In this document: positions 398 to 1,420 of the stretch, one piece after another
How positions within the stretch are numbered: position 1 is the first letter of the stretch
Layout: every line of letters starts with the position of its first letter
NCBI RefSeq assembly: GCF_003144095.1
Contig: NZ_NSKH01000018.1
Coordinates: 379,965 to 443,964, forward strand
Direction: 5' to 3'
Length of the DNA stretch: 64,000 nt
From: Streptomyces sp. ICBB 8177
Lineage (GTDB): Bacteria; Actinomycetota; Actinomycetes; Streptomycetales; Streptomycetaceae
The notes under the pieces: model-generated
What the model saw: only the letters and a program-made list of their open reading frames with translations
Told to the model about the DNA's origin: nothing
Databases searched by the model: none
Translations under genes and position numbers: made by a program

Positions 398-1420
398 TTA
401 AAAGTCCCAGTCGTCGTCGGCGGTGTTCTCGGCCCGGCCCATCACGTACGAGGAACCGGAACCGGAGAAGAAATCGTGGTTCTCGTCCGCGCCGGGTGAG
501 AGCGCGGCCAGGATCTCCGGGTTCACCTCGGTCTCCTCAGCGCCGAAGCGGGCCGGATAGCCCAGGTTCATCAGCGCCTTGTCGGCGTTGTACCGGACGA
601 AGACCGCCACGTCGTCCATCAGCCCCAGCGGTTCGTACAACTCGCCCGAGTACCGCAGTTCCAGGGCGTACAGCTCGTCCAGCAGGGCGTGCGTGAAGTC
701 CCGCATCTCCCGCTGCCCCGCGGGCGTCAGCTTCTCCAGGCCGCGCTGGTACTTGTAGCCGGAGTAGTAGCCGTGCACCGCCTTGTCGCGCAGGATCAGC
801 CGGATCATGTCGGCGGTGTTGGTCAGCAGGGCGTGCGTGGAGAAGTGCAGCGGCAGGTAGAAGCCCGCGTACAGCAGCAGCGAGGACAGCAGGGTGGAGG
901 CGACCTTCCGCTTGAGCGGATCGTCGCCGTAGTAGTGCGCGAGGACGGTCTTGCAGCGCTGCTGGAGGACGTCGTTGCCGACCGCCCAACGGTAGGCGTC
1001 GTCGATCTCGGGGGTGGTGGCGAGGGTGGAGAACACCGAGGAGTAGCTGCGGGCGTGCACGGCCTGCATGAAGGCGATGTTGGTGTAGACCGCCTCCTCG
1101 TGCTCGGTGCGCGCGTCCTGGATCTGAACGATCTCACCGACGGTCGCCTGAACGGTGTCGAGCATGGTCAGGCCGGTGAACACCCGCATGGTCAGGGTGC
1201 GTTCGTCCGCGGTCAGTCGCTGCTGCCAGGCGTTGACGTCGTTGGAGAGCGGGACCTTCTCGGGCAGCCAGAAGTTGGCGGTCAGCCGGTTCCACACCTC
1301 CAGGTCCTTCTCGTCCGTCACGCGGTTCCAGTTGACCGGGCGCAGTCGGGCGGTGGGATCGTGGCGGTAGGAGGGCGGTGTGACCGACAGCTCGGTCAGG
1401 CGCGCGGTCGCGTTCGTCAT
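398..1420 (-). CDS. nrdF: Ribonucleotide reductase small subunit NrdF, class Ie (metal-free, QSK) type
   Basis: Radical-generating subunit of the NrdE/NrdF ribonucleotide reductase, 340 aa. I start at the ATG at 1420 because GAGGAAG lies just upstream; an in-frame start at 1471 has no such site. The fold motifs are those of class Ib NrdF, but three of the four carboxylate metal ligands are changed. Asp88, His122 and His216 are kept. The Glu before HARSY is Gln119, the Glu of the LLES motif is Ser179, and the Glu of RDEAVHGYY is Lys213. All positions sit at a constant offset of 21 from the E. coli NrdF ligands. Tyr126, the radical tyrosine, is present. This Q/S/K set is the known signature of class Ie, in which a modified tyrosine (DOPA) radical replaces the metal cofactor. 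It is last in a nrdI-nrdE-nrdF operon. The family call is firm; the metal-free chemistry is inferred from these residues. Confidence 0.95.

Follow-up and report, generated by a model that had tools for sequence, protein, structure and literature searches.

Why bacteria keep a metal-free ribonucleotide reductase (RNR) is an open question, and the usual guess is an escape from metal limitation. Relevant to this question is the nrdIEF operon of Streptomyces sp. ICBB 8177, which lies in a stretch of 64,000 nucleotides of contig NZ_NSKH01000018.1 (assembly GCF_003144095.1, positions 379,965 to 443,964; hereafter the window). An earlier note, made from the letters of the window alone, had read the nrdF product as a class Ie (QSK) R2 subunit and had named class Ia and class II as the enzymes for which streptomycetes are known. 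The latter is true here as well: besides the class Ie enzyme, the host genome encodes class II NrdJ and class Ia NrdAB, in which the motifs for the carboxylate ligands are present. We consider it likely that nrdIEF is a horizontally acquired, last-resort aerobic RNR under the control of DmdR1, NrdR and a cobalamin (B12) riboswitch. The novelty seems to lie in the control region upstream of nrdI, which the earlier note did not mention, rather than in the QSK enzyme itself. This region offers a direct and testable answer, as it carries predicted sensors for precisely those two metals that the other RNRs need as cofactors; the organisms concerned are non-pathogenic and often tractable. We found no earlier report of an nrdIEF operon preceded by an iron box and a B12 riboswitch in the open-access PubMed Central literature, though reports elsewhere are possible.

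The three glutamate metal-ligand positions of NrdF are occupied by Gln119 (CAG), Ser179 (TCC) and Lys213 (AAG), while Asp88 (GAC), His122 (CAC), Tyr126 (TAC) and His216 (CAC) are retained. Both the residues listed in the earlier note and the Q, S and K codons that it had checked were thus confirmed in the DNA and by alignment with relatives. All 38 other QSK NrdF sequences gathered from public genomes share the seven-position pattern D-Q-H-Y-S-K-H, whereas the class Ib relatives are all D-E-H-Y-E-E-H, with zero intermediates between the two. Sequencing error is excluded because NrdF of seven other streptomycete species has identical QSK residues. The top matches to NrdF in the PDB were 8RAG and 8RAH, the solved Gardnerella QSK class Ie R2, and the alignment with 8RAG has no gaps across the seven sites. 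A maximum-likelihood tree was built from 86 rows, VPK (Val/Pro/Lys) class Ie sequences being left out. A branch with a support of 100/100 sets its 42 QSK rows apart from class Ib, and the eight streptomycete class Ie NrdF group together (100/99). NrdF of Corynebacterium halotolerans (L065) is also QSK, yet its branch is very long (1.25).

Ligand residues, phylogeny and the nearest solved structure together make the predicted assignment of NrdF to class Ie (QSK) well supported; the alignment and tree revealed no Glu at the three ligand sites and placed NrdF inside the QSK clade. That this R2 is instead a degenerate class Ib protein with some metal-dependent activity, in which water or other ligands compensate for Gln, Ser and Lys, is highly improbable. 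The three substitutions are fixed across the 100/100 clade, the Gardnerella homologue (~67% identical) forms dihydroxyphenylalanine (DOPA) and holds metal at trace level only, and more than 60 species are reported to have QSK as their sole RNR (PMC11846895).

The presence of a class Ie enzyme in an actinomycete is in itself no surprise, since QSK was already known in Actinomycetota: a GTDB survey found QSK class Ie confined to this phylum, in 266 genomes of four orders (PMC11846895). Where the earlier note placed class Ie mainly in Mollicutes and some Firmicutes, it was hence right for the VPK variant but not for QSK, all 266 genomes being from Actinomycetota. QSK is nevertheless rare in Streptomycetaceae, where we found it in 5 of the 395 genomes sampled. 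The partners of NrdF are both available in the operon, as NrdI matches TIGR00333 (149 bits) and NrdE matches TIGR04170 (1169 bits) and retains the motifs GELVSC, SNLCSEI, ISCNLG, YY and the C-terminal CLSCAL, which bears out the description of the two genes as adjacent and intact.

Upstream of nrdI, the 5'-to-3' order is an 18-bp palindrome, tandem NrdR boxes and a cobalamin riboswitch. An alignment of the leaders of eight streptomycete class Ie operons revealed the riboswitch and the NrdR pair in 8/8 and the core of the palindrome in 7/8, while the sequence between these elements drifts. The exact 14-bp core occurs in 19 of 121 Streptomycetaceae genomes, compared to 0/121 for the reversed control. 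Across the family, 15 of the 17 exact sites located away from nrdI adjoin iron, haem or Fe-S genes, encoding haem oxygenase (7), a siderophore-interacting protein (SIP; 6), an FhuF-like protein (1) and SufB (1); representatives of these neighbours were checked in Pfam and the rest were recognized by sequence, the FhuF-like gene being without a Pfam match. In the ICBB 8177 genome, TTAGGN4CCTAA with at most one mismatch adjoins genes for EfeU, FecCD, Bfd, DoxX, MurA2/AcnA and an FhuF-like protein as well as two SIP genes. The genome-wide count of such sites was not above the control (17 vs 14), and their informative aspect is placement, not count. The same gene types belong to the DmdR1 regulon of S. 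coelicolor (PMC12161575). Furthermore, the host genome encodes one protein with a DtxR dimerisation domain, an iron-dependent DtxR equivalog. The palindrome is therefore best read as a predicted DmdR1 iron box. We rejected its reading as an MntR site or a standard 19-bp IdeR site, as the fit to the 19-mer is poor (6-7 mismatches) and the 14-mer is common to iron genes.

NrdR pairs were called as two 16-bp boxes near the consensus acaCwAtATaTwGtg (quoted in PMC4009431) with a spacer of 15-16 bp. The pair upstream of nrdI has this arrangement and is the only one scoring at least 21/32 on either strand of the window. The riboswitches of the eight streptomycete class Ie leaders score 84-103 bits, above the RF00174 gathering score, and binding of adenosylcobalamin would be expected to lower nrdIEF expression. 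Among 19 other class Ie loci scanned, which include those of Leucobacter, Micrococcus, Brevibacterium and Corynebacterium, such a riboswitch was absent from all but one, on an Acidimicrobiia metagenome-bin contig. This contig carries class Ie nrdIEF, the cobalamin riboswitch and a metE gene, without an iron box, and possibly reflects transfer or misbinning. The class Ie aptamer of ICBB 8177 shares a stretch of ~60 identical bases with the metE leader of the window. In a test of whether it derives from the metE or the nrdAB riboswitch, the class Ie riboswitch was 85% identical overall to both, with differing expression platforms and a weakly resolved tree.

In the same genome, the leader of the class Ia operon also has NrdR boxes and a cobalamin riboswitch, and no iron box was found in it. 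The two class I enzymes are therefore distinguished by the iron box. For the class Ia operon nrdABS of S. coelicolor, control by B12 is established, according to the citation of Borovok 2006 in PMC4991794. Among the eight class Ie streptomycetes, a census of R2 and R1 genes assigned classes Ia, Ie and II to seven, each of which carries the iron box. In the draft genome of the eighth, Streptomyces abyssomicinicus, class Ie is the only class I RNR found, alongside class II, and the iron box is missing. This single genome is suggestive of a tie between the lack of class Ia and the absence of the iron box, and provides a natural control.

These comparisons also bear on whether nrdIEF might be a recent, non-functional import on a native leader, its control sites being leftovers without consequence. 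The lower G+C content of the operon (67% vs 73%) and the patchy occurrence noted above would fit such an import. However, nrdI, nrdE and nrdF are all intact, the leader elements are kept across eight species despite the drift in between, and S. abyssomicinicus has class Ie as its sole detected class I RNR, leaving this explanation with very little probability.

In the mechanism that we propose for a functional, regulated operon, NrdI would provide an oxidant that converts Tyr126 of NrdF into a DOPA radical without metal, and this radical would be handed to NrdE for ribonucleotide reduction, as judged from close homologues. DmdR1, a DtxR-family iron repressor, would repress the promoter when Fe(II) is plentiful, NrdR would do so when dATP is plentiful, and the riboswitch would shut expression when adenosylcobalamin is plentiful. 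With these three controls combined, the operon would be fully on only if NrdJ and NrdAB are both short of cofactor. It would thereby act as a third-line RNR for times when low adenosylcobalamin disables NrdJ and low iron disables NrdAB.

A link to metals also seems to exist for class Ie operons beyond the streptomycetes. A different, 20-bp palindrome, AASTWCG-N6-CGWASTT, lies upstream of nrdI or nrdF in 24 of 39 QSK loci compared to 1 of 42 class Ib loci, a figure that includes three streptomycete iron boxes as partial matches and is inflated by related sequences and by the choice of the motif from the same set. Micrococcales, Actinomyces and Corynebacterium share it in their class Ie operons (loci L010-L041 and L065). 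When tested as a regulon motif across whole genomes, with one mismatch allowed, it did not exceed the reversed control. The gene divergent from the class Ie operon in Brevibacterium and Brachybacterium encodes a metal ABC binding protein whose closest relatives are Mn/Fe types. A DtxR-family gene, in one case MntR-like, is found near the operon in Actinomyces and in two species of Corynebacterium. In Corynebacterium amycolatum, TATGTTCAATCCCTTGAACATA, located ~88 bases upstream of nrdI, resembles the MntR box of C. glutamicum. In Leucobacter, Micrococcus and others (six loci), the divergently oriented neighbour of the class Ie operon is a gene for GTP-dependent phosphoenolpyruvate (PEP) carboxykinase, with the palindrome in the shared intergenic region; as PEP carboxykinase commonly uses Mn, this neighbour may be a metal-sparing paralogue.

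These loci lend some weight to the idea that another regulator than DmdR1, such as one that senses manganese or redox state, binds the streptomycete palindrome, and that the class Ie operon has no iron response: a distinct palindrome occupies a similar position elsewhere, Mn/Fe-type binding protein or MntR-like genes stand beside it, and DtxR-family proteins can sense Mn. We regard this as unlikely, because the sole DtxR-family protein of the ICBB 8177 genome is an iron-dependent DtxR equivalog and 15 of the 17 exact sites in the family stand beside iron or haem genes. It seems fairly probable that streptomycetes couple a metal-free RNR to joint sensing of iron, through DmdR1, and of cobalt/B12, through the riboswitch, and thereby restrict its expression to times when neither metal-dependent RNR can work, and that, more widely, actinobacterial class Ie operons are tied to metal-starvation regulators, of Mn/Fe type in Micrococcales and Corynebacteria.

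Several observations weigh against the explanation proposed here. Two of the 17 exact-motif sites have no obvious iron gene beside them, and at 14 bp the palindrome falls short of the 19-bp DmdR1 box. The single NrdR boxes are weak compared to the consensus (12/16 and 10/16), and the call therefore rests on their spacing, their uniqueness in the window and their 8/8 conservation. Folding of the leader revealed a conserved hairpin with covariation too low to separate transcriptional from translational control. The link between class Ia and the iron box depends on the single draft genome of S. abyssomicinicus. Finally, nrdH is absent from the class Ie operon, and the best match to the NrdH model in the ICBB 8177 genome is far under the cut-off.

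Features of the nrdIEF locus and other cobalamin riboswitches of the window, in window coordinates.
Feature	Position	Strand	Remarks
Predicted DmdR1 iron box	4429..4446	minus	perfect 18-bp palindrome ACTTAGGTATACCTAAGT; 14-bp core TTAGGTATACCTAA at 4431-4444
NrdR box 1	4403..4418	minus	ACACAACATCTGGGGT, 12/16 to consensus; 15-bp spacer to box 2
NrdR box 2	4372..4387	minus	GATCCAGATGTAGTGT, 10/16 to consensus
Cobalamin (adenosylcobalamin) riboswitch aptamer	4160..4376	minus	RF00174, 103.4 bits
Leader from aptamer to nrdI	3993..4159	minus	strictly conserved GGCCCCGAGGGAGGGCC hairpin, probable expression platform
nrdI, flavoprotein	3534..3992	minus	probable TTG start at 3992; overlaps nrdE
nrdE, R1 catalytic subunit	1459..3603	minus	probable TTG start at 3603; active-site and C-terminal Cys motifs intact
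nrdF, class Ie (QSK) R2 subunit	398..1420	minus	340 aa
Cobalamin riboswitch	8178-8302		before toroid-repeat protein gene, close to CbiQ-like gene
Cobalamin riboswitch	25460-25641		before aldehyde dehydrogenase/acyl-CoA dehydrogenase pair
Cobalamin riboswitch	31601-31781		before metE (B12-independent methionine synthase)

Besides the class Ie leader, the window contains three further cobalamin riboswitches, with prpC and prpD (2-methylcitrate) and aceA (glyoxylate) located between or near them, and these surroundings look like a B12-response region. Convergent with nrdF, the C-terminal part of an Fe/Mn superoxide dismutase is encoded at 15-281; no match to this fragment was found in the other streptomycete class Ie loci searched. 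At four other streptomycete loci, but not in the window, a gene recognized as ThiI-like by its sequence lies closely 3' of nrdF.

Among known systems, the VPK class Ie enzymes of Mesoplasma florum, Streptococcus pyogenes (NrdF2) and Aerococcus urinae resemble the one described here in their replaced metal ligands and in the NrdI-dependent DOPA radical that is predicted here, and differ by having Val/Pro/Lys instead of Gln/Ser/Lys, an nrdFIE gene order and a distribution in Bacillota rather than Actinomycetota. The class Ie system of Gardnerella vaginalis/Bifidobacterium vaginale (8RAG, 8RAH; PMC11846895) is closer, as it shares the QSK residues, the clade and the nrdI-nrdE-nrdF order at the NrdF identity given above. 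In contrast, the streptomycete operon lacks nrdH, provides a third RNR beside NrdAB and NrdJ, and is preceded by a B12 riboswitch and an iron box; both the iron box and the class Ie palindrome seen outside streptomycetes are absent from the three Gardnerella loci that we scored. In its control region, the operon most resembles Streptomyces class Ia nrdABS, which, as described in papers citing Borovok 2006 and Grinberg 2006, likewise has tandem NrdR boxes followed by a cobalamin riboswitch and serves as a backup to NrdJ. Compared to nrdABS, the class Ie operon combines a different R2, expected to be metal-free, with an added upstream iron box.
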